Under the pieces are notes generated by a model. That model ran no database searches, had not been told where the DNA came from, and was given only the letters and a program-made list of their open reading frames with translations. 64,000 bases of DNA from Henriciella sp. (GTDB lineage Bacteria; Pseudomonadota; Alphaproteobacteria; Caulobacterales; Hyphomonadaceae). The stretch spans positions 124,001 to 188,000 of the forward strand of contig JABSPZ010000006.1 in NCBI GenBank assembly GCA_013213785.1. Reading direction: 5' to 3'. Within the stretch, counting starts at the first letter, position 1. Each line of letters opens with the position of its first letter. This document shows, one piece after another, positions 11,916 to 37,628 of this stretch. Made by a program: the position numbers and the translations under genes.

Positions 11916-12034
11916 AAGCGAAAAATTCTGTCCTGACACTTTTTTACTGGCGTCTTGGCAGGTTCATCCTTTTATAGAGAGCGATATGTCGAAAAGTGCG
12001 GACCACTGGTCCAGCCAATCCGATCGAGTACGTG

Positions 12035-12841
12035 ATGAAGCGCCGAGAAAAGAAAAGCGAAAGCTTAGACATCCGTCTGCCATACCAACAGAAGCAAGAC
12101 TTCATGGCAGCGACAAAGCAACGGGGCGAGAACGCCTCGGAGGCCCTTCGCCGCTACATCACTGACTATATCGAGGAAGCTCGACTGGCCGAACAACCCC
12201 ATCCGGTCCAGGAGATTACCATGACCCTCGCACGACATCGCTTTAAATCCCTCGCGACAGCTGCTGGCGCCGCTATCGGCGTGTTTTCCATCACCGCGCT
12301 CCCCTCCGCCGCAGACTCCGCCGCCTTTGAGGCGCTGGATAAGAATAATGACGGCATTCTCACAGAGGGTGAGATTGCGCCGGGCTTTGATGCCGACATC
12401 ATCGAAAAGCTCGACACGGATGGCTCGGGCGGCGTGAGCCAAGCCGAGCTGGAAGCCGCTGGCAATCACATCGTCATCCATGACAGCGAGACCTCGTCCG
12501 AGGAAGATGGCCAAGACGTCACCCGAAAGACGATGAAAGTGCTGAAGTTTAGCGACTCCGCGGATGGTGAAATTCACGGCGAGCTGACCACCGAAGTCGA
12601 CAAACGCATCACCATCAAACGCATGGGCTCAGGCGCCGAGCTTTCTGAAGAAGAGCTCGAAGCCTTGATCGAGCAAGCCCTGGCGGAAACGGATGCTGAC
12701 TTCGACATGGACATAGATTTCGACACAGAAACCGTGTTCGAAGACGTCAGCGAGTCCGGCGACAAACGCATCATCGTCAAGAAGATCCACCGCTCTGAAA
12801 CAACGTCCAGTTCAGAGACTGACGCAGACGAAACCAAATAG
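12035..12841 (+). CDS. Ribbon-helix-helix domain joined to a signal/TM segment and periplasmic EF-hands
   Basis: A 268-aa protein of unusual build. Residues about 8-50 look like an Arc/CopG-type ribbon-helix-helix: strand LDIRLP, helix YQQKQDFMAATKQRG, then NASEALRRYITDYIEE. A basic stretch and a hydrophobic segment follow (about 64-95, ending LPSAAD, like a signal peptide). Two canonical EF-hand loops come next (DKNNDGILTEGE and DTDGSGGVSQAE), then a highly acidic tail with two DKRI-IK/VK motifs. The frame is open upstream to GTG 11996, but 12035 aligns with the next gene. Met63 (12221) has its own strong ribosome site, so a short exported Ca-binding form is also possible. The role is unknown; membrane-bound regulator or overlapping two-product gene are both open. 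Confidence 0.75.
   Translation: MKRREKKSESLDIRLPYQQKQDFMAATKQRGENASEALRRYITDYIEEARLAEQPHPVQEITMTLARHRFKSLATAAGAAIGVFSITALPSAADSAAFEALDKNNDGILTEGEIAPGFDADIIEKLDTDGSGGVSQAELEAAGNHIVIHDSETSSEEDGQDVTRKTMKVLKFSDSADGEIHGELTTEVDKRITIKRMGSGAELSEEELEALIEQALAETDADFDMDIDFDTETVFEDVSESGDKRIIVKKIHRSETTSSSETDADETK
12210..12223 (+). promoter_or_regulatory. Internal ribosome site and start codon in the RHH/EF-hand gene
   Basis: AGGAG at 12210-12214 stands 6 nt before an in-frame ATG at 12221. Translation from here yields a protein that begins with a typical Sec signal peptide (basic MTLARHRFK, hydrophobic core, small residues before the Asp). This site is better than anything before the upstream start at 12035. 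The same arrangement recurs in the next gene. Confidence 0.55.
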
Positions 12842-12871
12842 CGCGCGGCGTATTTCACAATTCACAACAAG

Positions 12872-12923
12872 ACCGAAAGCCTGTCCGGACACGAAAAGTC
12901 TGGCGTATGAACGGGCTTTCGGT
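12872..12923 (+). terminator. Long-loop hairpin between the two RHH genes
   Basis: ACCGAAAGCC (12872-12881) pairs perfectly with GGCTTTCGGT (12914-12923), and TTT follows. The 32-nt loop is long for an intrinsic terminator but can fold further. It may attenuate between the two paralogous genes or end the first transcript. Confidence 0.45.
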
Positions 12924-12981
12924 TTTCATGCCCTGACGAAGCGGTCCTGATACGGGCATCGACGAACCTTCGGAGACCGGC

Positions 12982-13587
12982 ATGACAAAACCACGCCCTG
13001 AGAAAAAGACTGAAATGATTGAAGTGCGCCTGCCGCACTCCAAGAAAGAGGCTTTTAAACGCGCGTGTGAAGAGGAGGGGATCACGGTCAGCCACGCCGT
13101 ACGCACCTTTGTCGATGCTTATCTTCGCCGGTCTCGCCGGATGAAAGCAAAACGTATCGCAAAGGACATTTCGATGACTCTCATTCGCAATCCATTGAAA
13201 ACGACCGGCAGCCTCGGTGCGGCGGTCGCAGCCGCATTTGGTATTGCAGCTTTGTCAGCGTCACCAAGTTTCGCTGATCGTGACACGCCGCCAATCGAAC
13301 CACCAGTACCTGAATATCCAATCGATTTGGCCAATCAGGGGATTGGGGCGCATTGTGACAATTATTTCGATGTCAGCCCGGAAGGCTACGTCATCAATCT
13401 AGAGGTCAAATGCGGACATCCTGGCTTCGTAACCTCATCGCACAACGCAGTTTCGACACTCCGGTTCAAACCCAAAATGGTCGATGGCGAAGCGGTGACC
13501 CGCAAAGGCGTGATCTATCCCATCGTCTATTTGCTGCAAGATGAAGACGGAAATGACATCGAGCCGCTTATGCCGAAAAAAGACTAG
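12982..13587 (+). CDS. Ribbon-helix-helix domain joined to a signal/TM segment and TonB-C-like periplasmic domain
   Basis: A 201-aa paralogue of the preceding gene in its first 95 residues. It has an RHH-like part (strand MIEVRLP, helix SKKEAFKRACEEEG, then TVSHAVRTFVDAYL), a basic stretch, and a signal-peptide-like segment ending SPSFAD at about residues 65-97. The exported part starts with a Pro-rich linker. It continues with a fold resembling a TonB C-terminal domain: YPIDLANQGIGAHCDNYFDVSPEG, then STLRFKP and VIYPIVYLL near the end. It has a good site for the long form (GGAG, 6 nt before ATG 12982) and another for an internal ATG at 13174. No TonB N-terminal box is visible, so energy transduction is doubtful. 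Confidence 0.75.
   Translation: MTKPRPEKKTEMIEVRLPHSKKEAFKRACEEEGITVSHAVRTFVDAYLRRSRRMKAKRIAKDISMTLIRNPLKTTGSLGAAVAAAFGIAALSASPSFADRDTPPIEPPVPEYPIDLANQGIGAHCDNYFDVSPEGYVINLEVKCGHPGFVTSSHNAVSTLRFKPKMVDGEAVTRKGVIYPIVYLLQDEDGNDIEPLMPKKD
13161..13176 (+). promoter_or_regulatory. Internal ribosome site and start codon in the RHH/TonB-C gene
   Basis: AAAGGA at 13161-13166 lies 7 nt before an in-frame ATG at 13174, and MTLIRNPLK then opens a signal-peptide-like segment. The position matches the internal start in the upstream paralogue (Met65 here, Met63 there). Confidence 0.5.
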
Positions 13588-22787: not shown

Positions 22788-25148
22788 TTATCCTTTGTTG
22801 AGCAGGGAACGAAGCTGAGATGTTGCTGCTTCGTCTTCGATCACTTCATTAGGCTCGTTTATGTTAGCAGCCGGGATCGGCACGACAGACTTGTCCTGAC
22901 GTGGTTTCAGCCAGCGCCACTTCGACTCCGTCGTATAATACTTGCGATAAGCGTTTGACGACGAAGACTGCTCTGTATGGTGACGCTTCTTCGTCAAATC
23001 GACCATATTCAAGGCAAGTCCCAACACATCGGCTTTCATGCTCTTCAGCATTTCCAATGAGCGACGGACGGACGTGCGGCGAGAGCGCATCCAGCGCAGG
23101 ATGAGGATGGTCTTGTCTGTCTTACTCGCGATCACACCAGCCTCCGCAATTAGCAGCAGCGGCGCCGTATCGATTAGGATGAGATCGTACTGTGTTTTCA
23201 GCTGCGCAAGCAGCGTGTCGAAGCTCTTGGTTCCGAACACATCGAACAGTGTCTTACCGTTCGGTGTTAGGGCCAGAAGATCGAGGCCAGTATGCTCTTC
23301 GCGGTAGATCGCTTCTTCGAGCTCACACTCACCGAGCAAGAATTCAACCAAGCCGGTCTCTGGAGAAATCCCGGCTGAAGCCGTCAATTGCCGGCGACGG
23401 AAATCGCCATCAATGACCAGCGTCTTATCGCCGGATAGAGCTGACATGCGGCCGAGGCTGAGCGTCAAGCTGGTCTTACCTTCATCAGGAAGCGACGACG
23501 CAATCGTGACCGTTTTTGTACCCTCTTCCATCGCGGAGATCGCAATCGAAGCACGCAAGTAGCGCATACTCTCAGCGTATGCTGACAATGGATCTTGGAT
23601 CAGGAAGTCGGCCGGCACTCGGCTGCCGAAGCCCAGGAATTTCAGAGAGCGAATGAGCGGCACGGCGCCCAAACTCGGGAAGCCAAACTTGCGTTCGATC
23701 TCTTCGACAGAGCGGATTTGATTGTTGAAGATCTCCAACGCGATCGCGATGCTGACACCAACACAGCCACCCAAGAGCATACCAATGATCAGGTTCAGCA
23801 TCTTCCGTGGCGATGACGGAGATACTGGAACAGATGCCGGCGACAAAACGCGTGAGTCGGGTTGTACCAGCTCATCCTGCTCACGTGTTTGCTTAAAACG
23901 TTGAACAAACTCTTCGAGGATCAGGCGGCTGGCTTCAGCTTCACGCTCAAGCTCGTTCAATCGAACTTGCGAGCGGTTGTTTCGTGCCAGATTGGAGCGT
24001 GACTGACCAATACGCCGATCCAAAGCCGCGATTTGGTCATTCGCAACGTCGAGCTCGACTCGCAGGTTATCCACGATGCGGCTCGCCTCGTTCGTCATTT
24101 GCTGCTCATAGTCGCTAATCTCGCCAAGCACGGCAATCATGCGCGGGTGCTCAGGTCCCAATGAGGTCGACAGCTCGGCTCGGCGGCGTCTGGCTTCTGA
24201 CAGTTGGGTCTTCAGCTGAGCAATAACAGCTGAGTCCAAAACCTCGCCGATCGCATCAACGCCGGCGCCTGTATTGAGCTGGCGGCGCATGCCATCATAT
24301 CTCGCACGAAGTCGGGCAACCTCACCCTCGAGCTCAACGCGTTGGCGTTGCAAAAGGGCGATATTCGCTTCGGTTAGCGTCGCACCCTGTGCCGCCAAGA
24401 GACCAGATTCAGAGCGATAATTCTCAACCAAGATTTCTTTCGCGGAAACCTCTTCTTCAAGCGTTTCAACACGCTCGGCGAGATAACGTGTAGCCCGGGC
24501 CGTCGCTTCCAGTTTCACTTCCAGTTGCTCTAGGCCGTACTGTTCAGCAATCGCATTCGCGAGGCGCGCAGCGTTCTCAGCCGACTCACTCGTGACGGTA
24601 ACTTGCATCAAATAAGTCGTGCCGACACGGCTCACTTGAACCTTCCACATCAGGTTCCGGAGTACGATTTCCTTGATATCTTCTTCGGTGAGCGGCTCGG
24701 TCTCTTCTGCCTCGTCACTCCCTGGCAGCAAACGTGCCAGCATGCCCGGCTCTTTCGGTGGAATCAGGGTCGGATTGAATTCCGGATCCTCAATCAGATT
24801 TTCTTTTTCGACGACCTTCGCCAAAAGGGCTTTCGAGCCCATAACGCGAACTTCGGTGTCGATCACGGCCGTGTTTAGCGCCGCACCGCTCAAAACAGCG
24901 CCGAGGTCGATAACATTCGTCTGCTTACTGTCGACAATCACAGTCGCCGTCGACGTATACTGCGGGGTCTGTGTGAACGTGTAGAACCCGATCAAACCAA
25001 ACACGAGCGCGGCCGCAATCGAGATCGTCCAAAAGCGGCGGATCGCCAGCTCGACGATAGATTTAACGTCGCGAAAAATATTATCGCTCGTGGATTCGGA
25101 CGCGTCGTTCCTATCCTGTGCAATTTCGAAACTAATTTTCTGCGACAT
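22788..25148 (-). CDS. Polysaccharide co-polymerase with tyrosine autokinase domain (ExoP/Wzc type)
   Basis: Inner-membrane BY-kinase of 786 aa that sets EPS chain length and couples polymerisation to export. The Wzz domain is flanked by TM1 (about residues 40-60) and TM2 (about 445-470), with a long coiled coil between (about 215-420, rich in Leu/Glu/Arg heptads) and a Pro-rich PCP motif before TM2. The kinase domain has Walker A SSLPDEGKTSL, Walker A' LVIDGDFRR and Walker B LILIDTAP. The tail has a small tyrosine cluster (YRKYYTTES) as probable autophosphorylation site. Asp instead of Gly in the P-loop (DEGK) is a mild oddity. It lies 21 nt after exoA. Confidence 0.95.
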   Translation of the reverse strand: MSQKISFEIAQDRNDASESTSDNIFRDVKSIVELAIRRFWTISIAAALVFGLIGFYTFTQTPQYTSTATVIVDSKQTNVIDLGAVLSGAALNTAVIDTEVRVMGSKALLAKVVEKENLIEDPEFNPTLIPPKEPGMLARLLPGSDEAEETEPLTEEDIKEIVLRNLMWKVQVSRVGTTYLMQVTVTSESAENAARLANAIAEQYGLEQLEVKLEATARATRYLAERVETLEEEVSAKEILVENYRSESGLLAAQGATLTEANIALLQRQRVELEGEVARLRARYDGMRRQLNTGAGVDAIGEVLDSAVIAQLKTQLSEARRRRAELSTSLGPEHPRMIAVLGEISDYEQQMTNEASRIVDNLRVELDVANDQIAALDRRIGQSRSNLARNNRSQVRLNELEREAEASRLILEEFVQRFKQTREQDELVQPDSRVLSPASVPVSPSSPRKMLNLIIGMLLGGCVGVSIAIALEIFNNQIRSVEEIERKFGFPSLGAVPLIRSLKFLGFGSRVPADFLIQDPLSAYAESMRYLRASIAISAMEEGTKTVTIASSLPDEGKTSLTLSLGRMSALSGDKTLVIDGDFRRRQLTASAGISPETGLVEFLLGECELEEAIYREEHTGLDLLALTPNGKTLFDVFGTKSFDTLLAQLKTQYDLILIDTAPLLLIAEAGVIASKTDKTILILRWMRSRRTSVRRSLEMLKSMKADVLGLALNMVDLTKKRHHTEQSSSSNAYRKYYTTESKWRWLKPRQDKSVVPIPAANINEPNEVIEDEAATSQLRSLLNKG

Positions 25149-25169
25149 AACCGATCACCACGTTCTGTA

Positions 25170-26210
25170 TCATCGTTGTTTTTGTATATTGTTCGAAACC
25201 GATCGTTCAGACCGGCCTGAATAGTGCTTTAGCACTTGCGAAAGAAAACCTGATCCCCACGACAGATGCATTGTCGCCAAAGCGAAGCCTGTCCATAGGC
25301 CACATAGACTCATTTTGGACAACGCAAACGTCAAGGAGACGGTCACCGCCACTACTAAATAGCTCACTGGGAGTAAAGCGAACCAAGGGGAGAGGGGCAA
25401 TAAGGCGACACCGAACAAAATCCCTAAAACGGCCGCGACCGGCACGAGTTGCCTAATCTTCGGGCGAACGGCATGTTTCAGGATCGTTCTGGCGCGTCCT
25501 TTACCGTAATTGAAATATTGTCTTGCGAGGCTCTGAATATCGCCTCTTGGCGTATATTCGATACGCGTGTCAGCATCTAAATAGATAGATCCACCGGCGA
25601 GGCTAAGCCGGTGGTCATATTCTGCATCTTCATTGTGCGAGAACGACTCATCGTATCCGCCGACCTTGCGAAACCAACCAAGATCAAAACCGGCATGATG
25701 CCCATGATCGACGTAGCCAGATTTCGATCCGCCGCGATGCGCAGCGCCGCCCGATCCAAGCAATGAGTCGACGGCCCAAGCATTAGCCTTTTCAAAACAA
25801 GTCGTGCCCACCGAATCCATCGCCGTCACGACTGAAGCCGCGCCCGTTGTTTCGAGCGAGCTCACGATGTCGTCCAAAAAGTTCTCGGGGTAAATCGAAT
25901 GGGCATCGCATCGAATGATGTATTTCGTGTCCGGCGAGGTGACTTGGGAGACGGCTAGGTTTACCGCCGCTGATTGCAGCTTTTTGGGATTCTTCAGCAA
26001 GCTCAGTTGGGGAAACTCGGTGCTCAGGTCGCCAACGATTTCCCGAGTGCGGTCGCTGCTTCCGCCATCACACACCACAGCAGTGTAACGGTCGGCGGCA
26101 CCGCCGAGTAAGGAGCGCAAACAGGCCTCAATGTATCCCTCCTCGTTGAGAGTCGGGAGCACAACCAAAACATCGCGTGAGGCAGTATGTTGGGCTGAGC
26201 CAGCTGGCAT
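25170..26210 (-). CDS. exoA: ExoA-like GT2 glycosyltransferase
   Basis: Membrane-associated GT2 of 346 aa resembling ExoA of succinoglycan synthesis, which adds a beta-1,3-glucosyl unit to the lipid-linked chain. Motifs: VLPTLNEEGYIE at residues 17-28, CDGGSSDRT near 47-55, IIRCDAHSIYP near 98-108 and HNEDAEYDHRL near 191-201. The C-terminus has three membrane helices (about 255-325). There is no clear ribosome site at 26210. The gene is first in the exoA-exoP-GT4-GT2 unit; the 260-nt spacer to the divergent wzx gene should hold both promoters. Confidence 0.9.
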   Translation of the reverse strand: MPAGSAQHTASRDVLVVLPTLNEEGYIEACLRSLLGGAADRYTAVVCDGGSSDRTREIVGDLSTEFPQLSLLKNPKKLQSAAVNLAVSQVTSPDTKYIIRCDAHSIYPENFLDDIVSSLETTGAASVVTAMDSVGTTCFEKANAWAVDSLLGSGGAAHRGGSKSGYVDHGHHAGFDLGWFRKVGGYDESFSHNEDAEYDHRLSLAGGSIYLDADTRIEYTPRGDIQSLARQYFNYGKGRARTILKHAVRPKIRQLVPVAAVLGILFGVALLPLSPWFALLPVSYLVVAVTVSLTFALSKMSLCGLWTGFALATMHLSWGSGFLSQVLKHYSGRSERSVSNNIQKQR

Positions 26211-26470
26211 GTTCGTTCAAAATCCCCGTTCAACGCAAACAGATCAACGCAGGGCTTCCATTGGCAGACCGCTGCGATGCACCATGGTCCGTATTCAAGT
26301 TGTGTGCCAAAAATGGGGCACTGCAGCAGGTTTTCACGTCGTTAAAACGAAGATGATATCCCGAGCCACAGAATGGCCAATTGAAACCACACCCGAAACC
26401 GTCAAGAAGACCCAACTGGCGCCTCAGACACCGGGGCGCATCATGAGCAACCGGACAGCAAAACCAGAAA

Positions 26471-27907
26471 ATGCCTGAGCACACCTCAAAAAGCATTATA
26501 AAATCAATTGGCTGGGTCTCCATCGGAAATATCGCGACCTTGCTGTCGGGTATGATTTCGCTGATCGTCATTGCGCGCATTCTGGATCCCGCGGATTTCG
26601 GATTGTACATCACCGCTATTTTGGTGATCGCCCTTCCAGGCACCGTGTCTTCAACTCTAGCTAATGCGTTGATTCAAAAGTCAGAAATTTCAGAGCGCGA
26701 GATAAAAACTGTAAACGGCGTCAGCGTCGCGCTCAGCATGATTTTCTGTGCGGCACTGTTCGTTTTAGCGCCCACCATTTCAGATGCACTCGGCCAAAAC
26801 CAATTAGTCATGATCGTGAGGGTCTGCGCCTTTTTCATGATTTTTGACGCCATCACCTCAGTCTCTGCTGGGCTGCTGACGCGGAACATGGAATTTAAGA
26901 AGATCTCAGCGGTCGACATCATCTCCGGTTTGATCAGCGTGACCTGCGGGATCACCTTTGCCATTTTGCTCGAAAATGCCTGGGCCCTCGTGATTATGGA
27001 GGGGACCCGTCGGTTTTTGAGGATGGTTCTGTTTTCCACGTTTGCAAAATGGCTTCCCAGCGTTGCGTTCGATATGGCTGCCTTAAAACGAGTGGCCCTG
27101 TTCGGTACTCATATGACGCTCCTGAAATTATTGGTCCAAGTTCAGGATGTCGTCACAGGGCTCATTGTGGGGCGTGTGAATGGTCCCGCAGGCCTGGGAC
27201 TTTATAATCTCGCCAATCGTCTGCTTCAGCAGGCGACGCAGACTCTCATCTGGCCCGCGAGCGTCGTCGCGTTCCCATTGCTCGCTAAAGCAAAACCCGG
27301 GTCTCCAAATTTTCGACAATCACTCTCTGAGTGCATCTCCCTCGTCACTCTGATCAGCTTCCCAGCTTTTGCAGGAGCATTTGTGGTCGTACCAGAATTG
27401 ATCCCGATCTTGTTCGGGGAGAAATGGTCTGGAGCGATTGTGGCCACACAAATCGCCTTGGCTCTGGGTGTCTTTAGATCAATCGCGACCGTCAATGAAA
27501 GCGTGCTTAGCTCAGTCGGCAAGCCTGAGCGTCTAGTCTTCATCAATTGCGCGACCTTGGCCTGGATTATCATTGGTCTCACGCTGTTCGCGAAGAATGG
27601 ATTAGAAGCCGTTATGCTGGTCATGCTCGCGCGTGAGGCGCTTCTATTTGCGCTAGGAGTCTGGCAAATTGATCGTGCCGTGGGCATCCAAGTGATGGAT
27701 CAGCTGCGACCGGCGATGCTGCCATTGTTTGCTGCGTCCGGTATGTTCGTCGCAATCTTCGCTTTGAACAGTTTTGCAATTGTAAGCTGGCCTGCGATCG
27801 CTGCGATCGGGATCACGATCTTCACGGGTATCCTAAGTTACGCCGCGTGTTTGTATCTTGTTGCACCGGCCACGGTACGCCGTGTGCTCGCCATGGTGAA
27901 AAAATAG
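26471..27907 (+). CDS. Wzx/ExoT-type lipopolysaccharide/EPS flippase (MOP superfamily)
   Basis: Polytopic inner-membrane flippase of 478 aa with about 12-14 hydrophobic segments, moving undecaprenyl-diphosphate repeat units to the periplasm. The N-terminal pattern (SIGWVSIGNIATLLSGMISLIVIARILDPADFGLY) and the central NLANRLLQQ segment, where YsxaxrL is usual, fit the PST/Wzx group; it resembles the WzxC/ExoT set associated with exo-type loci. It is transcribed alone on the plus strand between two minus-strand transferase groups and converges closely (16 nt) on the next GT2. Confidence 0.92.
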   Translation: MPEHTSKSIIKSIGWVSIGNIATLLSGMISLIVIARILDPADFGLYITAILVIALPGTVSSTLANALIQKSEISEREIKTVNGVSVALSMIFCAALFVLAPTISDALGQNQLVMIVRVCAFFMIFDAITSVSAGLLTRNMEFKKISAVDIISGLISVTCGITFAILLENAWALVIMEGTRRFLRMVLFSTFAKWLPSVAFDMAALKRVALFGTHMTLLKLLVQVQDVVTGLIVGRVNGPAGLGLYNLANRLLQQATQTLIWPASVVAFPLLAKAKPGSPNFRQSLSECISLVTLISFPAFAGAFVVVPELIPILFGEKWSGAIVATQIALALGVFRSIATVNESVLSSVGKPERLVFINCATLAWIIIGLTLFAKNGLEAVMLVMLAREALLFALGVWQIDRAVGIQVMDQLRPAMLPLFAASGMFVAIFALNSFAIVSWPAIAAIGITIFTGILSYAACLYLVAPATVRRVLAMVKK

Positions 27908-27923
27908 CGCACGGATATGGCGT

Positions 27924-28889
27924 TTAGCGCGTCCGCGATGAATTGAGTTTGTTGGCAATCGTGCGAACCGCGAAGCCTAAGGTCGCTCGAGAGATGAAGA
28001 AAGAAGAGACGATTTTCCCAAGGTCGCGCTCGCGGGCGCCGTCGAGCAAAGTCCATATACCCCATTCCTTACGGGAATAAGCAAGGTGCCCAGAAATCGC
28101 TTTGCGCTCAGACTTCGAAAGATCTTTTCGGCTCAAAAAGGTCTGATCGATCATCGCAACTTTCTTGTGTTCATCGCCTGCTTGTGAGCGAGAACTGCTA
28201 TGTGGCCGCTGGATGAAATAATATCCGCACGGGTCAACCAGGACCGCTGAAGCACCGTCCAAAAGAAGACGGGTGTAGAGCTCGTAGTCTTCGGCAAAAC
28301 GAAGCTCCGGTTGATATGGCGCCTCAGGGATTTCTAGCCGCTTTCTCGAGATAAGGGGCTTGAGAAACCCGAGTTCAGATCTTTCCCGGGGCATATCGTA
28401 TGAGTGCTCGACAAAGTAAGCCGCGCCTATCGGGACAATTCCCTCAGGCTTCTCCAGCCAGAGAACACGATCGACCTCGAGCGGTGTGTCAGCCTGGGTA
28501 ATCAGAAGATTATCGGCCACAATGTCGGCGCCCTGATCTTTGGCGATCTGGATGAGTTTGCTGACCCGCTCAGGATCCATGATGTCATCGCTATCCAGAG
28601 GCAAATACCATTCCGCATCCGTGTGTCCGAGCGCGATGTTACGGGCCTTCGATGGACCACCATTTTGCGGGGCTTGAATAAAGCTGGCGCAGTCAAATTC
28701 CGCACACACAGCCCGTGCGACTCGCGCCGTATCATCCGTCGAGCAATCATCGACAATCACGACTTCTAAGGAAAATCCAGACGGCAGTGTCTGTGCAGCC
28801 GCCGACCGGATCGCGCGTTCAATATTCGCCTCATCATTGAACACGGCAATGACGATCGCGACTTTGTTTTCATCTAGCGCAATTGTCAT
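27924..28889 (-). CDS. GT2 family glycosyltransferase
   Basis: Soluble GT-A transferase of 321 aa. Seen are IVIAVFNDEANIERAI at residues 12-27, VVIVDDCSTDDT near 44-55, and YLPLDSDDIMDP near 94-105 holding the DxDD metal site. An FAEDYELYTRLL motif near 218 is the usual ED catalytic region. The acceptor is unknown. It is the second of two adjacent GT2 genes on the minus strand with a 110-nt gap, so the two may share a transcript. Confidence 0.92.
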   Translation of the reverse strand: MTIALDENKVAIVIAVFNDEANIERAIRSAAAQTLPSGFSLEVVIVDDCSTDDTARVARAVCAEFDCASFIQAPQNGGPSKARNIALGHTDAEWYLPLDSDDIMDPERVSKLIQIAKDQGADIVADNLLITQADTPLEVDRVLWLEKPEGIVPIGAAYFVEHSYDMPRERSELGFLKPLISRKRLEIPEAPYQPELRFAEDYELYTRLLLDGASAVLVDPCGYYFIQRPHSSSRSQAGDEHKKVAMIDQTFLSRKDLSKSERKAISGHLAYSRKEWGIWTLLDGARERDLGKIVSSFFISRATLGFAVRTIANKLNSSRTR

Positions 28890-28999
28890 TTTGGCTCAAA
28901 CGCTCCCAACTGATCGTGGATAGAGAAAATGCACGTGAATTTCAGCCTCTTATTCAGCAAGCTACGTGCCGAAATTTTGCTTCACCGCAATCGGCAGGT

Positions 29000-30103
29000 C
29001 TAGCGTCGAGTGAGCCGTTTAATGAACCGGCCAATATTCTGCACCCAAGACGGCCTCGCGTCTGCATCGATCGCCGGTTTAATCAAAAACAGTCTGAGGT
29101 TGGACGGCGCAATTTGAAGGGTCGACCACCACACATAGGATAAAACTTTAGTCAGCCCCTGCGTCTCACTCTGAGCGCGGCGTTTGGCGCGATCCAAAAG
29201 GACGGCCAAATCATCACCTTCGATTTCATGCAGCTCTGGCTCGATAATCAGCGAGACGATGCGCTCTCGCAGCAAAAAATGGTCTTCATCAAAAACTGCT
29301 GGACCATGTTCGAGCCCGAGACGTTTAGCGTGCTCATGCATAGACGTACGGCGGTCATGTCCATGTTTGATACGCCACCGCGCACGCTTTGCGTAGACCT
29401 TTCGGAATTGAGAATGTTGTCGGGTGTGCAGTCGATAGGCAGACATCGGCTCATCGATCGTCAGGCTCGCCCCATAAAGCGGCACCGTTGAACAAAGAAA
29501 CCCATCCGCGCCGTATCGATAGACGTCTTCATCCATTGGCAAAGCTTGGGACAAAGCTTCGCGCGAAAACACCATTCCAGATGTTACGGTGCTATCATAT
29601 TCGCCCGTGGTCAGCAGTCGTTTGACGATATCGCCACTCGCAAGGGTTTGGTCAATTGGGGGGAACAGGCCTCGAGTGTTCCCACCTGGATCGCCGTATT
29701 TCATCCGAAAATGATAGATCGCTGCTCCGGGTTGATAAGCGGATAAAATGGTCTTCACGCCATCGGGTAGAAGAAAATCATCCGAATCCAAAAACATGAT
29801 AAGGTCGCCTGTGGCGTACTGTAAGCCCTCATTGAAACCGGCACCCTGGCCCCCGTTTTTTTCCCTTAGGACCAGGTCTGCTCGACCTGCATACTGTTGG
29901 ATCACATCTCGCGATCCATCTGTCGACGCATCATCAACCACAATGAGTTGAACCTTGGGCTCTTGAGACAATACGCTTTCGATCGCAGCCCCGACGAATG
30001 TCTCATAATTGTAATTAGTGATGATGACCGAAAGCGTCGGTGTCTGAGAATGTGCCAAGTAATGCCCCGTGAGCGGAAAAACGCGGTAATTTGCAGGATT
30101 CAC
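29000..30103 (-). CDS. GT2 family glycosyltransferase
   Basis: GT-A transferase of 367 aa with VIITNYNYETFVG at about residues 27-39, VVDDASTDGS near 55-64, and MFLDSDDFLLP near 98-108. The protein starts at a GTG (30103); no ATG lies before the first GT strand, so the GTG is the best available start. The C-terminal 100 residues are helical and basic. It is divergent from the GH16 gene with a 152-nt spacer between them. Confidence 0.9.
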   Translation of the reverse strand: MNPANYRVFPLTGHYLAHSQTPTLSVIITNYNYETFVGAAIESVLSQEPKVQLIVVDDASTDGSRDVIQQYAGRADLVLREKNGGQGAGFNEGLQYATGDLIMFLDSDDFLLPDGVKTILSAYQPGAAIYHFRMKYGDPGGNTRGLFPPIDQTLASGDIVKRLLTTGEYDSTVTSGMVFSREALSQALPMDEDVYRYGADGFLCSTVPLYGASLTIDEPMSAYRLHTRQHSQFRKVYAKRARWRIKHGHDRRTSMHEHAKRLGLEHGPAVFDEDHFLLRERIVSLIIEPELHEIEGDDLAVLLDRAKRRAQSETQGLTKVLSYVWWSTLQIAPSNLRLFLIKPAIDADARPSWVQNIGRFIKRLTRR

Positions 30104-30156
30104 ACCAAGCCTATGTCGAATGCCTTTCGATCGCGTTTACCTTTAAGGTCAGATGA

Positions 30157-30174
30157 CCATGCCCATTGGCATGG
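30157..30174. repeat. Perfect inverted repeat in the GT2/exoK spacer
   Basis: CCATGCC and GGCATGG are 7-bp arms around a 4-nt CATT loop, about 80 nt before the GH16 start. It could be an operator between the two divergent genes; nothing identifies the regulator. Confidence 0.3.
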
Positions 30175-30255
30175 CGTTTGCAACCATAGCCATTATCAAC
30201 AAAAGTTGTCGCGGCCTTACCTTGTGGTGAGGGCCGGCAAGGCATGGAGTTCTAG

Positions 30256-31095
30256 ATGCTCAAATTCGCAACCACATCCGCGATGATGGCAGCCGCCGGT
30301 CTGCTAGCTGGATGCCACGGCCTAACAGAAGCCGAGTTCAACCAATCCGCCGCTCAACCTTTAGAAAACGACGCAAAAGTCGCGCCCATTTTTGTCGACT
30401 GGAGTCAGTTTGCGGTAAGCGACGACTGGTACGTCTCCGATCACCCCCTTCCAGGCGGGCATTGGAAAAGCGATTTCGCATCCAAAAATGTGCTCGCGCT
30501 TCCCAATGGGCTTAACATCAAAATGACTTCTAAGACGCCGGCAAATGAAAGCTGGCATTGGGATGGCGGGGAAATCCAGCACAAGGCTCGCGTCAAGTTC
30601 GGTGAATATCATACCATCATGCGCGCTGCGAGCGGCTCAGGCCTCGTCTCAAGCTTTTTCACCTACACTGGTGAGTATTACGGAACCCCGCATGAGGAAA
30701 TCGATTTCGAATTTGTCGGCAAAAGCCCTTACGAAGTCCAACTAAACTCTTTCACAAACGGCACCTCTCATGGTCGCATTGAACATCCGGTGGATTTCGA
30801 CACAAGCAAGAACTTCGCTCTCTATTCCTTCACTTGGAACCCTGACCGGATCTCTTGGTTTGTGAATGGTGAACTCGTCCACGAAATCACAAGCGAACTG
30901 CATCCGATCCCACAAAACCCCGCCATACTTTTCGCGAACGTATTCCAAGGGCGGGAAGAAGGCTGGGTCGGCGCACCAGAGTTTGTCGACGGCGCACAAG
31001 CGACGTATCGCTGCATGTCATATCGACCAACGGGCGATACTACTTCACCGACATGCGCTGAAATTTATGACCTCGAGTATAATCAGAAAGATTAG
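30256..31095 (+). CDS. exoK: GH16 family glycoside hydrolase lipoprotein (ExoK-like)
   Basis: Secreted beta-glycanase of the laminarinase/lichenase family, probably trimming nascent EPS as ExoK does for succinoglycan. Residues 1-20 are a lipoprotein signal with lipobox LAGC (Cys20), so the enzyme should be membrane-anchored, whereas ExoK is released. The GH16 signature EIDFE is complete (E148 nucleophile, D150, E152 acid/base), and a WHWDGGEI segment lies upstream. The length is 279 aa. GGAG 6 nt before the ATG supports the start. It stands alone on the plus strand inside the EPS locus. Confidence 0.93.
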   Translation: MLKFATTSAMMAAAGLLAGCHGLTEAEFNQSAAQPLENDAKVAPIFVDWSQFAVSDDWYVSDHPLPGGHWKSDFASKNVLALPNGLNIKMTSKTPANESWHWDGGEIQHKARVKFGEYHTIMRAASGSGLVSSFFTYTGEYYGTPHEEIDFEFVGKSPYEVQLNSFTNGTSHGRIEHPVDFDTSKNFALYSFTWNPDRISWFVNGELVHEITSELHPIPQNPAILFANVFQGREEGWVGAPEFVDGAQATYRCMSYRPTGDTTSPTCAEIYDLEYNQKD

Positions 31096-31152
31096 AAGAT
31101 CGATCTGCTCAACGCGTCTGACAGCTTACCCAACGTAGCGAGGGCTTACGCC

Positions 31153-32160
31153 TTAAGCGTTCTGATTTTTTTGAGCGTACTGTCCGTAAGGTCGGAACCG
31201 GTAGAGATAGCTTGGCACGATCGCTTCGATCGTTTCAAGCTGCTCGACCCCGAGATCCGCAAGGGTCAGGGCGCCATCAGACACGACATTGTCCTGCTTT
31301 AACAACTCGACCTGATTGCCCGTGATCGGGGGCGCACCCAAAATCCCAGAGGAGAGTGGCCAGACATAGTGATATAGGGCGCCAAAGGTTAGGCCCATCG
31401 GCTTTGCGAGCGAAAATGGCATCGGCAAAGGGTAACGTTTCCGATGAACGGTTTCGCAAATGTACTGATACAGCTCTGCAAACGTGTAAGTCGACGGCCC
31501 GCCCAGCTCGTAGGTCTTGCCGGCACTTTCTTCAGACGAAATGGCTTGCACCAGAGCGCTCGCCACATCCCCGGCATAGACCGGTTGAACCTTCGTTTTT
31601 CCGCCGCCAATCGCAGGCAGGAAGGGCAGAATGGAGGCGATTGGGTGCGCGGTCATTGCTGCAAAACGATTGAAGAATTCGTCTTCAGGCCCAAACACGA
31701 TCGATGGCCGCAATATGACAGAAGACGGGACAAGGTCGCGAATCGCCGCTTCCGCTTTGCCCTTAGTTTCAGCATAGTCCGCATTCGCCTCAGCATCCGC
31801 GCCAATGGCTGAAACGTGAACCAGTTTCTCGATCCCAGCAGCGGCGCACGCCTCTGCGACATTCACCGCGCCCTCGAGCTGTGTTGCTTCGAAGCTTTGG
31901 GCGCCTTTTTCATAGAGAATGCCAACAAGATTTATGACGGCATTGGCTCCGTCGATCGCCGCATCAATGGATGCGCGATTGCGTACATTAGCTTGAACGA
32001 TATCCACCAGACCAGGCGCGCCAGCCAATCTAACTTCACCAGCCAAGTGCGGTCGGCGTACGGCCACTCGAACCCGATATCCTTTCGCGACGAGCGCGCG
32101 GGTCGCGTATCGTCCGATGAAACCAGATCCTCCAAAAATGGTGACGAGACCTTTTGCCAT
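31153..32160 (-). CDS. Complex I NDUFA9-like / NAD(P)-binding SDR-type protein
   Basis: Atypical extended SDR of 335 aa. FGGSGFIGRYATRAL at residues 9-23 is the dinucleotide-binding loop. VHVSAIGADAEANADYAETKGKAE near 113-136 holds the Ser/Tyr-x3-Lys region, and LRPSIVFGPED near 146-156 is typical of the NDUFA9-like group. That group is common in alphaproteobacteria and is thought to assist complex I assembly or quinone chemistry. It has no evident part in EPS synthesis and separates the GH16 gene from the pseudogene region. Confidence 0.9.
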   Translation of the reverse strand: MAKGLVTIFGGSGFIGRYATRALVAKGYRVRVAVRRPHLAGEVRLAGAPGLVDIVQANVRNRASIDAAIDGANAVINLVGILYEKGAQSFEATQLEGAVNVAEACAAAGIEKLVHVSAIGADAEANADYAETKGKAEAAIRDLVPSSVILRPSIVFGPEDEFFNRFAAMTAHPIASILPFLPAIGGGKTKVQPVYAGDVASALVQAISSEESAGKTYELGGPSTYTFAELYQYICETVHRKRYPLPMPFSLAKPMGLTFGALYHYVWPLSSGILGAPPITGNQVELLKQDNVVSDGALTLADLGVEQLETIEAIVPSYLYRFRPYGQYAQKNQNA

Positions 32161-33057
32161 CGTTTAGCTCTCCAAAATCCTCAGCTGAGATTCGAAACGC
32201 TTTGATCATGATCGCCGCAAATTGTCTATCTGTGAGCGCTGTGGCGAATTGCCGGAGGTATATCAATCTCATGCAGTAAGAAAACGCCCATGTCCGCTAG
32301 ACTCAACTGGGTACATCGCTGTCCAGCGCCCCATTCTTTGGAACGCTACCAGATGGTTTTTTTCATCGGCTCAAGGTCGGGATATTCCGCGTTTTGCTCT
32401 AGGAACTGCCGCTTCGTATAGTGCGAAAAGGCCATAACACGCCGGCAATTATTCGAGCAAATCCGCTTGTGCATCCAATTTTCAACCTGAGCGGTGACAT
32501 GTGCGTGACGGTCAAAAAATACGTGGTAGGTGAGATTCAAACGAAATGACAAAGCGGCCTAGATTTACCGAAACGCGGTTCCAAGTTTGCATCAAGTCCG
32601 GCGCCTCGAGGCGCTGCATAACTGTGACGCCATCATAGGAATTATGGATGAACCGACCTCGCAAGAATCGCTTCAGGTCGATCTGGTGACGCGAAATACG
32701 GGGCAGCACAAAGCTCGTGGGATACCGATCTGTGTGGGTCTGGATTGTGAGAGACTTGATGCCAGTCGGCCCCCAATTTTGATCGATGAACCGTCGTATG
32801 GTGGCAGACATGCAAATCGAAGCAGAGAATCGAGTAAATTGGTTCCAATTTGTGGGCCACTTATGTGACGTTCAAGGTATTGATTGCCCCAAGCCAAAGG
32901 TCTCCAACCAAAAGGGGATTTTGGTTTTACTAGTTGGGAATGAGTATCAGGTCATTCTGGTACGAGATTTGCTGTATAGTGACCTCAATAGTTAAGGATA
33001 TGCGTCTGTAGGATCACTGATCAAGATTGATTGCGTGAAAATCCAGATGATTGACAG
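32161..33057. other. Gene-poor stretch holding a decayed glycosyltransferase
   Basis: About 900 nt with no intact gene. The centre (32346-32811) is the remains of a minus-strand GT4 gene, annotated separately. I see nothing coding in 32161-32345. In 32812-33057 there is only AT-rich sequence that probably includes the promoter of the phosphatase-exoF-barrel operon. Confidence 0.6.
32346..32811 (-). pseudogene. Frameshifted and truncated GT4-type glycosyltransferase
   Basis: Two overlapping minus-strand frames together read like the N-terminal part of a GT4 transferase. The first (32811 down to 32512) has HTDRYPTSFVLPR, then RFIHNSYDGVTVMQ and FVISFESHLPR. The second (ending 32346) continues with FFDRHAHVTAQ and CRRVMAFSHYTKRQFLEQ. 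The junction is in a run of six T followed by GACC, where a +1 shift joins them. A TAG then stops the second frame after about 55 residues, and the catalytic C-terminal half is absent. The Rossmann start of a full GT4 is also not found upstream. It is most likely a dead remnant of an EPS transferase. Confidence 0.7.
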
Positions 33058-33990
33058 ATGATGAGATCGTTACGCGATATTGCAGACAGACTCACAGAGT
33101 GGGCGGTTCGCACTTGGAATGCGCTCCGAAGCAGGCGCCCTTCGCTTAAACGTATCGCGCCGCCCAAAGCTGCTCCAACGACATTTAAACGCCTAAGCGA
33201 CGTAGATAAGTCGGAATCCGCCGCTGGCGGTCTCAAGGTCATGAGCGCGTCCAGCGAGCCAGCTCTTGAATTGCCATTTGACGCGCCTGTTTATGCTATT
33301 GGCGACGTACATGGCCGCGCAGACCTCCTAAAAGGCCTTATGAAGGCAATCGAAAACGACCAAGATACGGGCGAAGAGAAGCCGCACATCGTCTTCCTAG
33401 GCGACTATATTGATCGCGGTTTTCAATCTCGTGATGTCATCGAAATGCTCATCGATCTGGCGGATGATGACCGCTATGAAAGCGTGTTCTTGAAGGGCAA
33501 TCACGAACAAGCGATGCTGCACTTTCTTTCCGATCACAATATCGGACCGGAATGGGCCAATTTCGGCGGACGCGAGACTTTGATTTCTTACAATGTCGCG
33601 CCGCCCAAATCGGTCGAGGCAGCGGAAGAATGGCATCCAATTCAGAAACAACTTCAACGCACTATTCCAAAATCGCACGTGGAATTCTTAGAACAGTTGA
33701 CGGTCAGCCATAAGATTGGCCCATACGCGTTTGTCCATGCAGGCGTGCGTCCGGGAGTACCATATGAGAACCAGTCAGACGAAGATCTGATGTGGATCCG
33801 AGATGAATTCTTAAGCGCGAAAGAAAAAGAAGATCTCTTCATCGTACATGGCCATACCCCTGTAGATAGCCCCTATCTCGATCATCGCAGAGTCAATGTG
33901 GACACCGGCGCTTACTTTACAGGTAGGTTGACCGCAGTTAAAATTTTCCAGGGTCGTATGTCCTTTTTGAACAATAAAACTTCGCCGTGA
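33058..33990 (+). CDS. PPP-type metallophosphoesterase / serine-threonine protein phosphatase
   Basis: A 310-aa protein with the calcineurin-like dimetal centre: GDVHG at residues 82-86, GDYIDRG at 115-121 and GNHE at 147-150. The later metal histidines are in AFVHAGVRPG and VHGHTPVDSP. The first 70 residues are basic and unlike the core. Close relatives include bacterial PrpA/ApaH-like phosphatases acting on proteins or dinucleotides. It is only 11 nt before the export lipoprotein gene. A role in dephosphorylating the EPS machinery is plausible but unproven. Start may be 33058 or the next ATG; neither has a strong ribosome site. Confidence 0.9.
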   Translation: MMRSLRDIADRLTEWAVRTWNALRSRRPSLKRIAPPKAAPTTFKRLSDVDKSESAAGGLKVMSASSEPALELPFDAPVYAIGDVHGRADLLKGLMKAIENDQDTGEEKPHIVFLGDYIDRGFQSRDVIEMLIDLADDDRYESVFLKGNHEQAMLHFLSDHNIGPEWANFGGRETLISYNVAPPKSVEAAEEWHPIQKQLQRTIPKSHVEFLEQLTVSHKIGPYAFVHAGVRPGVPYENQSDEDLMWIRDEFLSAKEKEDLFIVHGHTPVDSPYLDHRRVNVDTGAYFTGRLTAVKIFQGRMSFLNNKTSP

Positions 33991-34001
33991 AGGAACTGAA
34001 A

Positions 34002-34592
34002 ATGTCAATAAATATCAAGAGCATCGCCCAGTACGTGCTATTCTCATTGTTTCTCGGGTTCGCTGCAGCGTGCCAGTCCACACCAGCAGCACCTGTGACC
34101 CAAACTGCACCGCAGCAGGCGGATCTGAATGTCGGTGATTACCGACTGGGCCCTGCAGATCGATTGCGGATCACGGTGTTCGGACATGATGATTTGTCAG
34201 GCGAGTTCTCTGTGGCGAGCAATGGAACGATCTCATTTCCATTGATTGGCGATATCGAAGCCGCGGGACTGACGGTTACCGAATTCCAGAAACAGACAGA
34301 AGATAGCCTGAGCCAAGGCTACTTGAGATCACCACGAGTGACCACCGAAGTCATGACGTTCCGCCCGTTCTACATCCTGGGTGAGGTCAGAAAGCCTGGC
34401 GAGTATCAATACACGAATAGATTGACTGTCATGAATGCGATCGCGACCGCGGAAGGATTCACGCACCGCGCCAATAAGCGCCAAATCGCGATCCGCGGCT
34501 GGAACGACACCGAAGAACGACGCGTCGAGTTGACGCCAAATACGCTCATCCAGCCGGGTGACACCATTCGCGTTCTCGAACGTTTGTTTTAA
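34002..34592 (+). CDS. Polysaccharide export lipoprotein (Wza/ExoF type)
   Basis: Outer-membrane polysaccharide export protein of 196 aa. ATG 34002 has AGGA 8 nt upstream and gives a lipoprotein signal with lipobox AAAC (about Cys24). The Poly_export domain (YRLGPADRLRITVFG, then GTISFPLIGDIEAAG) covers about residues 45-130. An SLBB-like domain (FYILGEVRKPGEY, then TVMNAIATAEGF) follows, and the protein ends VLERLF. It is much shorter than E. coli Wza and lacks its C-terminal helix barrel, as is usual for alphaproteobacterial forms. The next gene may supply an outer-membrane barrel. Confidence 0.95.
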   Translation: MSINIKSIAQYVLFSLFLGFAAACQSTPAAPVTQTAPQQADLNVGDYRLGPADRLRITVFGHDDLSGEFSVASNGTISFPLIGDIEAAGLTVTEFQKQTEDSLSQGYLRSPRVTTEVMTFRPFYILGEVRKPGEYQYTNRLTVMNAIATAEGFTHRANKRQIAIRGWNDTEERRVELTPNTLIQPGDTIRVLERLF

Positions 34593-34668
34593 CTATTTTA
34601 GGGGATTGTAGTTCCCGAAATCACGCGGACGCACTGCGCGGGAAGTACAGTCAGAAGGGACTATCTCA

Positions 34669-35997
34669 ATGTCAAAATTAGCCACGGCAGGCATCACAAG
34701 TCTCCTGCTTAGCGGTTCGATCTGCGCCTATGCGCAAGTTGAGTCGATCAATTACAATAATAATCGGGTCATGCAGGGCAGCTACTATTTTGGCGCTAAC
34801 GTCGACGACCCGGATGGCGAAAGCTTCTTTGTGCGTAACCGCTACACCGCCGCTGACGCCTATTTTTATGAAGGCATTGACCCTCTTCCAGTACAGTTAG
34901 GCGTTTTCGAGACGAGACCGGTTCTACGCCTTAGCCCTGTTTCAAGAAGCAATGTATTCTTGAGCGAGAACGATGAAGTCTCCGATACTTTGGTGGCGAT
35001 CGCTCCATCTATTGCGGCAACAACCACTTGGTCACGGCACAGGCTCGGACTGGACGCCATCGTCCAGCACGAAGAGTTTTTAGACAGCAGCGAAGAGAGC
35101 GCCACGCAGTATGGCATTCGTGGCTTCGGCCAACTTGATATCACTTCGAACTTCGCAATTGCAGGTTCCATTGCTTCGGAAAACCTTCGCGAAAATCGTG
35201 TAAACGTGGGCGGCGTGATCAACTCTCGAGAGCGTGTTGAACTCGATCGGACAGGCGTTGAAGCGAACGCCGCCTATTTCGCGCAAAGAATTCGCCTGAG
35301 AGGCCGGTTTTCTCAAGAAACATTCGACTTCTCTGACGTGACAACGCCAGACGGCCTCCTCTTAGACCAAGACTTCCGAGACTATGATGAGACGCGCGTC
35401 GCAGCGAACGTCGAGTATGCCGTCTCTAGAGACTGGGCTGTGATCGCCGAGCTCGAGAATGTCGATCGCGAATATGACAACCTAACAGCCGGAGGGGTCA
35501 ACCGCGATATCTCGGGTAATATCGTTCGCGTCGGTACAAGTTTTGAACTTCCTGTCAGCTTGCGCGGACAGGTTAGCGCCGAGTATCAAAGCTTTGATCC
35601 AGCTGACCCAACGCTGGAAGATATTGATGAGTTTGGTCTCAACGCCGATCTCCGTTGGTTCTTGACGCAGCTGACAACCGCCAGAGCATTTGCATCACGG
35701 CGCGTATCGGATGCTGGTACGACAGGCGCGTCGAGCGCGTTGGTGTCGACGTACGGCGTGGGCTTGGACCACGAGCTCCTGCGGACAGTCATCCTCTCGG
35801 GAAGCTTGAACTACGAAACGCGTGAGTTCAATCCATTCGACCGTGAAGACGAGCAAACCACGTTTGATGTCGGTGCCGTTTGGAAACTGAACCCAAACAT
35901 TCAGGTTCGAGGCGGATATCGATTTACCAAGCAAGAGTCCGACATTGATCCATTCGAGGACAATGTCCTATCACTGCGTCTGAGCTTCTTCCCGTGA
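34669..35997 (+). CDS. Outer-membrane beta-barrel protein of the EPS locus (BBP2-like)
   Basis: A 442-aa exported protein: signal peptide at residues 1-22 (cleavage after AYA), then repeated amphipathic strands with many aromatic/acidic pairs. The C-terminus SLRLSFFP ends in an aromatic close to the usual BAM recognition signal (here with a final Pro). It resembles the putative beta-barrel porin 2 family often found next to exopolysaccharide export genes. It probably forms the outer-membrane exit or a stabilising barrel for the short Wza-type lipoprotein 76 nt upstream. It is last in the three-gene unit, followed by a strong terminator. Confidence 0.87.
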   Translation: MSKLATAGITSLLLSGSICAYAQVESINYNNNRVMQGSYYFGANVDDPDGESFFVRNRYTAADAYFYEGIDPLPVQLGVFETRPVLRLSPVSRSNVFLSENDEVSDTLVAIAPSIAATTTWSRHRLGLDAIVQHEEFLDSSEESATQYGIRGFGQLDITSNFAIAGSIASENLRENRVNVGGVINSRERVELDRTGVEANAAYFAQRIRLRGRFSQETFDFSDVTTPDGLLLDQDFRDYDETRVAANVEYAVSRDWAVIAELENVDREYDNLTAGGVNRDISGNIVRVGTSFELPVSLRGQVSAEYQSFDPADPTLEDIDEFGLNADLRWFLTQLTTARAFASRRVSDAGTTGASSALVSTYGVGLDHELLRTVILSGSLNYETREFNPFDREDEQTTFDVGAVWKLNPNIQVRGGYRFTKQESDIDPFEDNVLSLRLSFFP

Positions 35998-36049
35998 GCT
36001 AAGGGAAAGCATCACAGCCCTTAGTCATCTGGGAGCTATAGAACACTGG

Positions 36050-36084
36050 AAGCCGGCGGCCGTTCCCGTAGGTCGCCGGCTTTT
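36050..36084 (+). terminator. Rho-independent terminator after the export operon
   Basis: AAGCCGGCG (36050-36058) pairs with CGCCGGCTT (36074-36082) around a 15-nt loop. A T-run closes the hairpin. It ends the phosphatase-export lipoprotein-barrel transcript. Confidence 0.87.
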
Positions 36085-36159
36085 ATTCCAAGATCTGTTC
36101 AAACTCTATAGGCAGCGGGCGCGGGAGCAATACGAAACGGTCCCCGCCCCCAATCGGCG

Positions 36160-37011: not shown

Positions 37012-37628
37012 TCAATATGAAATCCATGCTCAACATATTCGAGCAAGTCTCGGTCATCATGATCAGAGTCTGTGATAATCACATCGCCGGTGCGATCAGG
37101 CAGACATTGAGCCGCCTCTAACATTTGAATCTTTCCATTTCGTCGATCCGTCACCAAATCTTTTTGGCTTGAGGCGACAATGTCACAAGATTCCAATTGG
37201 CTGCCTTTTAACATCGCCCTTATTGCGTCTTTTAGGCCAAAGGAGACAATCGTAATTTTGCTGGGGTCGACCGCTTCTAGCATTTGAAGGAGCTTGTCAT
37301 TTTTCTTCAGAGCGAACCGCTCGCGCGCGATGCCTTCAAAATCAGAAGAAAGCGCCGGTCTTAGCTTTTGCATCACATTCAAGCGTGTTGCGTCTCTGTA
37401 CAAAAAGACCCCATTCCGACCTCGAAAAACCCAAGGGCGAACAAGCCCGAGCAGTTTTAGGAACGGCCTGAACAAGAAGCTCGGTCTGGCAGACTGCAAA
37501 TACTCATCCGTCGAGCTGGCGAGCAAAAGCGTAAAGTCAAAATCGATAAAGTATCGGCGGTTCGGATCACTTTCCTTGATACATTTTTCCAATGCATCGA
37601 TTGCTCTGTCGCCTGTCAGATATTGCAT
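37002..37628 (-). CDS. HAD-superfamily hydrolase
   Basis: A 208-aa soluble phosphatase-like protein. Motif I is DFDFT at residues 29-33 (nucleophile D29, acid D31). Motif II is probably the Ser of IVSFG near 128, followed by a Lys in the VTDRRNGKI region. Motif IV is ITDSDHDD near 185-192. The cap lies between about 40 and 100. The substrate is unknown. It overlaps the downstream membrane protein gene and lies 48 nt below the Wzy-like gene, so it is probably co-transcribed with the EPS genes. Confidence 0.8.
   Translation of the reverse strand: MQYLTGDRAIDALEKCIKESDPNRRYFIDFDFTLLLASSTDEYLQSARPSFLFRPFLKLLGLVRPWVFRGRNGVFLYRDATRLNVMQKLRPALSSDFEGIARERFALKKNDKLLQMLEAVDPSKITIVSFGLKDAIRAMLKGSQLESCDIVASSQKDLVTDRRNGKIQMLEAAQCLPDRTGDVIITDSDHDDRDLLEYVEHGFHIEWL

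Follow-up and report, generated by a model that had tools for sequence, protein, structure and literature searches.

A family of alphaproteobacterial exported proteins with an N-terminal ribbon–helix–helix domain and a candidate operator upstream of their own genes

Ribbon–helix–helix (RHH) antitoxins and repressors such as RelB/DinJ, ParG, and VapB autoregulate via palindromes adjoining their own gene, and membrane-bound regulators of the ToxR/CadC type have a winged helix–turn–helix as their DNA-binding domain. Transmembrane transcription regulators consist of a DNA-binding domain, one membrane segment, and a periplasmic module in one polypeptide (PMC10269533). A survey of such regulators was built on Pfam DNA-binding models; the words "ribbon," "RHH," and "CopG" are absent from its main text, and RHH members may be in its Table S1 (PMC10269533). 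Proteins in which an RHH is fused to VanZ, a membrane domain, are on record (PMC12419801). In the open-license literature we recognized neither an RHH with an exported EF-hand or TonB_C module nor a TGTCnnGACA operator, and none of the matches listed for the palindrome was a bacterial regulator by title. A first-pass annotation had called an RHH version of a membrane regulator, with two starts and swapped periplasmic modules, undescribed. Within the open-license literature this holds for an RHH with an exported EF-hand or TonB_C module but, in view of VanZ, not for the fusion of an RHH to a membrane domain.

We analyzed a 64,000-nucleotide stretch of DNA from a Henriciella sp. (the window), in which two adjacent genes encode proteins that seem to be transmembrane one-component regulators of an unusual kind. 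Their open reading frames lie where the first-pass annotation had placed them, 140 bp apart, each with its own upstream palindrome (Table 1). The two are paralogues at the N-terminus, as had been proposed, the first 95 residues showing 36% identity (E 1e-12), with divergence after that. Judged by sequence only, each chain combines a cytoplasmic DNA-binding domain with a membrane segment, as expected of a one-component transmembrane regulator. The locus is flanked by an undecaprenyl-diphosphatase gene on one side and a sugar-aminotransferase gene on the other. With these neighbors and no recognized toxin-like gene, a toxin–antitoxin module was rejected, the adjacent toxin gene that marks a type II antitoxin being absent from the window locus. 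A conserved operon partner was likewise rejected because the open reading frames adjoining 11 relatives, known as open reading frames alone, differ from one relative to another.

Table 1. Features of the two genes, with positions in the window
Feature	Position	Strand	Remark
Candidate operator box 1, first gene, TGTCCTGACAC	11929..11939	+	106 bp before start
Candidate operator box 2, first gene, CGTCTTGGCA	11951..11960	+	22 bp from box 1
First gene, long form	12035..12841	+	RHH + export segment + EF-hands, 268 aa
RHH domain, first gene	12035..12181	+	model helices at residues 17-30, 34-53
Internal Shine–Dalgarno AGGAG, first gene	12210..12214	+	CAG-GAG codons in 10/10 orthologues
Hydrophobic signal-peptide-like segment, first gene	12221..12313	+	ends LPSAA|D
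Proposed short form, first gene	12221..12841	+	signal peptide + EF-hands, from internal ATG
EF-hand loop 1, DKNNDGILTEGE	12338..12373	+	sequence + Pfam
EF-hand loop 2, DTDGSGGVSQAE	12413..12448	+	sequence + Pfam
Candidate operator box 1, second gene, TGTCCGGACAC	12882..12892	+	100 bp before start
Candidate operator box 2, second gene, CGTATGAACG	12904..12913	+	weak match
Second gene, long form	12982..13587	+	RHH + export segment + TonB_C, 201 aa
RHH domain, second gene	12982..13134	+	model helices at residues 19-32, 36-69
Internal Shine–Dalgarno AAAGGA, second gene	13161..13166	+	AAG in 12/12 orthologues with Lys; 13th has Gln
Proposed short form, second gene	13174..13587	+	signal peptide + TonB_C, from internal ATG
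TonB C-terminal domain	13306..13530	+	residues 109-183 of second gene

Several side observations concern the surroundings. At a Ponticaulis locus (L097:1-6276), the neighbors are gltD-like, uppP-like, and epimerase-like, as in Henriciella; they were named by sequence only, and their likeness suggests that the locus is old. Elsewhere in the window, positions 22788-40318 hold polysaccharide genes, including those for an exopolysaccharide transport/tyrosine kinase protein (22788-25148), an ExoK-like glycanase (30256-31095), and a WbaP-like sugar transferase (39551-40318), and a BlaR1-like sensor protein is encoded at 49184-51520; all of these are best matches under model cut-offs.

As for the DNA-binding part, profile comparison bears out the predicted N-terminal RHH. 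A profile of 23 N-termini searched against PDB sequences matched DinJ (9lew) with an E of 1e-4, followed at E 0.025-0.92 by MazE7, VapB26, ParG, ORF56, RelB, AvtR, and MatP, which we take to be RHH proteins, while two unrelated non-RHH chains enter at E 1.1-1.3. Among 39 family members, 13 match Pfam RelB at E<=0.01 and six match NikA-like. A Pfam scan of both window proteins gave no RHH model above its curated cut-off, and Pfam-based surveys may therefore miss such proteins. The AlphaFold models of both window proteins show a helix pair in the RHH part, the block over residues 11-50 having a pLDDT of 88-97; overall pLDDT is 72 for the first protein and 83 for the second, pTM is 0.41 and 0.50, and part of the export segment falls below 50. 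The RHH strand is absent from these models, as expected for one chain, so that assignment to the strand–helix–helix superfamily is by sequence match and modeled helix pair, under Pfam cut-offs. Differences at the three codon positions of the RHH part are 0.138/0.127/0.455 per site in the first gene (10 orthologues) and 0.118/0.104/0.494 in the second (11 orthologues). Since substitutions fall mainly at third positions, the RHH part is selected as protein. In the same sets of 10 and 11 orthologues, mean pairwise identity is 0.80-0.81 for the RHH part and 0.85 for the EF-hand pair, and 0.54 for the remaining first-gene C-terminus and 0.57 for TonB_C.

The exported modules are as the first-pass annotation had read them. 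Pfam EF-hand_1 and EF-hand_6 score above cut-off in the first gene, as does TonB_C in the second, whose model matches TonB C-terminal structures (2gsk, E 1.1e-5). The second protein has the C-terminal fold of a TonB energy transducer, with an RHH and a signal-like segment at its N-terminus.

The linker ahead of the export segment had been described as basic in both genes, which is true of the second but not of the first (EEARLAEQPHPVQE). The export segment itself is a constant feature, a hydrophobic stretch being present in 96/96 family genes and the charge more positive before than behind it in 95/96. A signal-peptidase-like motif lies downstream of the stretch in 90/96 genes (shuffle mean 52.3, max 62) and in 49 of the 55 in a thinned set (shuffle mean 29.4, max 38) by a test that is crude, and the segment ends PSxA[DE] in many Henriciella rows. 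This motif argues against permanent tethering: once inserted, many long forms may be cleaved, with the RHH part left on a membrane peptide. In several Kordiimonas-type rows the segment is more hydrophobic, with no clear cleavage site; these resemble uncut anchors and are also without a box. The Kordiimonas-type members without a palindrome include L094, L100, L101, L104, L106, and L108, several of them similar to uncut membrane anchors, and they may have a different operator.

Next, the layout of RHH, export segment, and module was followed across genomes, where the pooled set provides the homologues that the first-pass annotation had counted on; with the RHH part and the fused frame confirmed as well, its proposal came through intact on these points. 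The N-terminal profile found a match in 53/101 genomes of the bacterial family, and the 49 named loci come from Henriciella, Ponticaulis, Parvularcula, Maricaulis, Kordiimonas, Brevundimonas, Ruegeria, Tateyamaria, Roseibium, and unplaced Alphaproteobacteria. Class- and phylum-wide searches gave at least 7/385 and at least 13/299 genomes, own genome included, some matches being an RHH without an export segment; these are lower bounds, because just 13 or 17 candidates were scored per large genome. From 102 distinct open reading frames matched by the profile, six were dropped (five <100 aa, one truncated by the end of its locus), leaving 96. This set takes in the two window genes (as L001 and, in a truncated copy, L136), two frameshifted genes (L019, L020), and a paralogue on contig C6 (L007) read after its in-frame stop only. 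Near-identical rows stay in the 96, and the thinned set numbers 55. The frameshifted genes are second-gene orthologues (L019 in G005, L020 in G022) broken just past the export segment, with RHH and segment open, which is either decay or assembly error. The C6 gene, the fourth paralogue of the own genome (G000:C6:113952-114107; L041:1332-2022), has an in-frame TAG within its RHH part, still has a TGTCCGGACA box 97 bp before the ATG, and carries a third, undescribed module.

The 96 genes confirm that modules are swapped behind a common RHH-export unit: 68 have EF-hands, 17 a TonB-like module, and 11 another, by a motif rule under which "other" includes the frameshifted TonB_C copy L020 and a missed EF-like row, L108. 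One gene (L080) has TonB_C and EF-hands together. The undescribed periplasmic module (VKVELQGDFQ... and similar; L177, L197-L200, L202, L201, L115), or one resembling it, occurs in nine of the 11 "other" rows; two scanned stretches of it gave no Pfam match below E 0.1 except the RHH part.

Upstream of these genes we found a palindrome that is new in this analysis and absent from the first-pass annotation. The sequence TGTCnnGACA (exact TGTCNNGACA) lies <=300 bp upstream in 72/96 genes, where 100 dinucleotide shuffles gave 0.24 on average and 4 at most, and in 37/55 of the thinned set. Its distance from the gene is 93-118 bp in 54 of the 72, 178-203 bp in 14, and elsewhere in four. For further comparison we used 82 operator rows, 72 with the exact sequence and 10 picked up by relaxed patterns that were written once those sites were known. 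In 59 of the 82 the box is followed, at exactly 22 bp, by another that resembles GTCnnGAC (shuffle mean 3.0, max 8). Twenty-two base pairs are two helical turns, a spacing that fits two RHH dimers side by side, as on RHH operators. The exact box is absent in 24/96 genes, 13 of which (nine Kordiimonas-type, three Caulobacteraceae-type, and L115) have no near variant at the usual place. Within the window, single boxes with one mismatch number 6 against 2.9 expected, no clear excess, and a sigma-70 scan found no promoter-like site. The palindrome is best read as self-regulation, the protein probably controlling its own production.

Box centers vary with one residue of the RHH strand, at what is presumably the DNA-contacting position in Arc and RelB. 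With Lys at this position the box is TGTCATGACA in 9/9 rows; with Thr it is TGTCCGGACA in 31 of 33 rows and TGTCCCGACA in two (TGTCC[GC]GACA in 33/33); with Met it is TGTCCGGACA in 7/8. Ser goes with five box centers among 22 rows. Leu goes with TGTGGGGACA in 3/4 rows, His with altered boxes in 4/4, and Arg occurs in one row; these three are no independent test, since the patterns behind them had been relaxed once the sites were known. On a tree built with the strand position masked, which is poorly resolved, Lys and CATG change twice each, in the same clades. The Lys/box pairing thus has two origins, with 1-2 independent pairs, too few for significance in a sign test. Because of the poor resolution and the few independent pairs, the co-variation of residue and box is suggestive rather than proven. 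Together, the palindrome, the 22-bp repeat, and the co-variation point to DNA binding by RHH dimers.

The palindrome is nearly confined to this family. In the own genome, the two exact sites for the pattern TGTCCNGACAC-N7-CTNGYG are those of the two window genes, and variants of the box precede the remaining two paralogues, by ~93 bp in one, for which a TTG start is assumed, and by 97 bp in the other. With <=3 mismatches the pattern has 136 sites in that genome and its reversed control 173; only exact or near-exact full sites are informative, because the loose pattern is no commoner than the control. A pattern meant for both window operators matched the first-gene site and, on the minus strand, box 1 of the second gene, missing the second-gene site in its proper orientation because box 2 there is weak. 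An earlier pattern with a different (wrong) spacing served as an unplanned control, with 13 sites at <=3 mismatches and none at the genes. A related pattern, searched in 29 genomes of the genus, matched exactly at 14 places (reversed control 1), 13 of them ahead of RHH-export genes. The fourteenth (L203:2370; G007:C39:64869) sits where relatives have an RHH-TonB_C gene. Compared with seven relatives, both flanks of this site align in three, with the gene between missing, and one flank aligns in four; since the flanks align to the relatives' loci with the gene missing between, the site is a relict operator of a deleted gene. The count of exact sites in 101 genomes of the bacterial family is 28, as against five for the reversed control: 24 adjoin RHH-export genes, one is the relict, and three lie elsewhere (G048, G032, G081). 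From this near-exclusive link, it appears that the palindrome acts mostly on the gene downstream of it.

The first-pass annotation had also pointed to an in-frame ATG with its own Shine–Dalgarno site inside each gene. Both ATGs are present, at residues 63 and 65 and in the same alignment column, as are both Shine–Dalgarno sites (Table 1). Whether they amount to a second start is answered in part: there is selection on the Shine–Dalgarno site in Henriciella and more widely, but the start is not universal, whole branches being without it. For synonymous conservation within the first 110 codons, the four-codon window before the internal ATG ranks first in the second gene (13 orthologues) and fourth in the first gene (10 orthologues), there behind the start region and residues 50-54. 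A Met lies between the RHH domain and the hydrophobic stretch in 76/96 genes, mostly 10-15 residues ahead of the stretch, as in a signal peptide; the other 20 have none. A strong Shine–Dalgarno site, defined by a duplex energy of -5 or better, precedes 53/97 of these linker Mets, as compared with 22.7 expected from synonymous redraw (none of 5,000 simulations reached 53) and with 30/351 at other internal Mets. The thinned set gives 23/46 (11.7 expected) and 22/225, respectively. Taken alone, each window gene has an unremarkable internal site (synonymous P about 0.24); in the first gene the duplex energy is -7.4 at the internal start and -2.5, thus weaker, at the primary one. No good internal start was found in 9/9 Kordiimonas-type, 3/3 Caulobacteraceae-type, and 4/6 Ruegeria/Roseibium-type rows, and within Henriciella, H. 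pelagia has ATA in place of the ATG.

The reading that we favor, and hold to be somewhat probable, is that these genes form an alphaproteobacterial family of self-regulating exported proteins, whose RHH would act on boxes at its own promoter and many of whose members would also be made in a short form from the internal ATG. In the full-length product, a signal anchor or signal peptide would link a cytoplasmic RHH with the periplasmic module, which may be EF-hands, TonB_C, or of another kind. The two GTCnnGAC boxes of the gene's own promoter would be occupied by RHH dimers in pairs, over the expected place of the -35 element. A conserved stretch downstream of the boxes, CCTTTTAT or GGTTTC[AT]AT (nine rows each of 82), is a candidate -10, and if it serves as such, the boxes would cover the -35 region. 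Repression is more usual than activation for RHH proteins, and binding would most likely repress the promoter; activation would also be compatible with the sequences, because the -35 element is missing. In many members, both window genes included, ribosomes would also start at the internal ATG just before the signal peptide, giving an exported module that has no DNA-binding part. Ligand or metal on the module, or its export and cleavage, would set the state of the membrane-linked long form and thereby the level of both products. A bolder version, which we regard as possible but short of probable, is a dual-output class of genes, each giving a membrane-linked RHH autoregulator and a free exported copy of its module. 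Here strand–operator co-evolution (Lys-TGTCATGACA, Leu-TGTGGGGACA) would keep paralogues apart and the periplasmic part would have been exchanged among EF-hands for calcium, TonB_C, perhaps for the TonB boxes of outer-membrane transporters, and the third, undescribed domain.

Much of this evidence can be read in other ways. The prevalence of the signal-peptidase-like motif, in the full as in the thinned set, and the PSxA[DE] ends of many Henriciella segments would suit an autorepressor coupled to export with no ligand sensor, in which every long form is cleaved by signal peptidase I and the speed at which the module leaves the cytoplasm is reported by the RHH-signal-peptide stub or by precursor not yet exported. 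We think this rather unlikely, given the more hydrophobic segments without a clear site in several Kordiimonas-type members and the crudeness of the motif test. It is unlikely, too, that the internal ATG and its Shine–Dalgarno site are a relic of the fusion of an RHH gene to a secreted-protein gene, with the long form alone mattering now. A Met at the start of the signal peptide is just the remnant that such a fusion would leave, and several branches, like H. pelagia, lack this Met, but a relic would leave unexplained both the synonymous conservation before the ATG, highest-ranking in the second gene, and the pooled excess of Shine–Dalgarno sites over synonymous expectation.

The palindrome lies at promoter distance and 13/96 genes do without it, as might be seen if it were a promoter or operator for another regulator (e.g., an ECF sigma factor) and the RHH acted elsewhere. 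The two-fold symmetry, the 22-bp repeat, the near-exclusive link to RHH genes across genera, the relict, and the co-variation with the strand residue all speak for the RHH itself and make another regulator improbable. That the window genes are ordinary secreted proteins, translated from internal starts with their good Shine–Dalgarno sites behind a spurious RHH frame or a separate small gene, we consider practically untenable: many genera keep the frame, its substitutions fall mostly at third codon positions, and no stop separates the two parts; a spurious frame was rejected on these grounds. If the favored reading of self-regulating exported proteins is true, a small DNA-binding fold joins the membrane-bound regulators, the odd N-terminal extension on a set of EF-hand and TonB_C proteins is explained, and marine alphaproteobacteria offer a testable regulator–operator pair. 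It suggests a way for one gene to make the level of a periplasmic protein depend on the export or ligand state of the protein itself.

Like regulators of the ToxR/CadC type, these proteins comprise a cytoplasmic DNA-binding domain, a membrane segment, and a periplasmic module in a single chain (PMC10269533), but the family differs in its RHH, signal-peptidase-like site, internal start, and palindrome at its own promoter. They belong by profile match to the same domain family as the RHH antitoxins and repressors RelB/DinJ, ParG, and VapB, in contrast to which the window proteins are fused to an export segment and a periplasmic module and have no recognized toxin-like neighbor. With RHH-VanZ fusions they share an RHH and a membrane domain in one protein; VanZ, however, is a membrane domain, and the account of these fusions, in the part concerned with them, mentions no exported module, operator, or second start (PMC12419801). 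Finally, the exported modules are like those of TonB C-terminal and EF-hand proteins but are attached to a DNA-binding domain, and, unlike TonB, the second gene has just a short proline-rich stretch before its TonB C-terminal domain.
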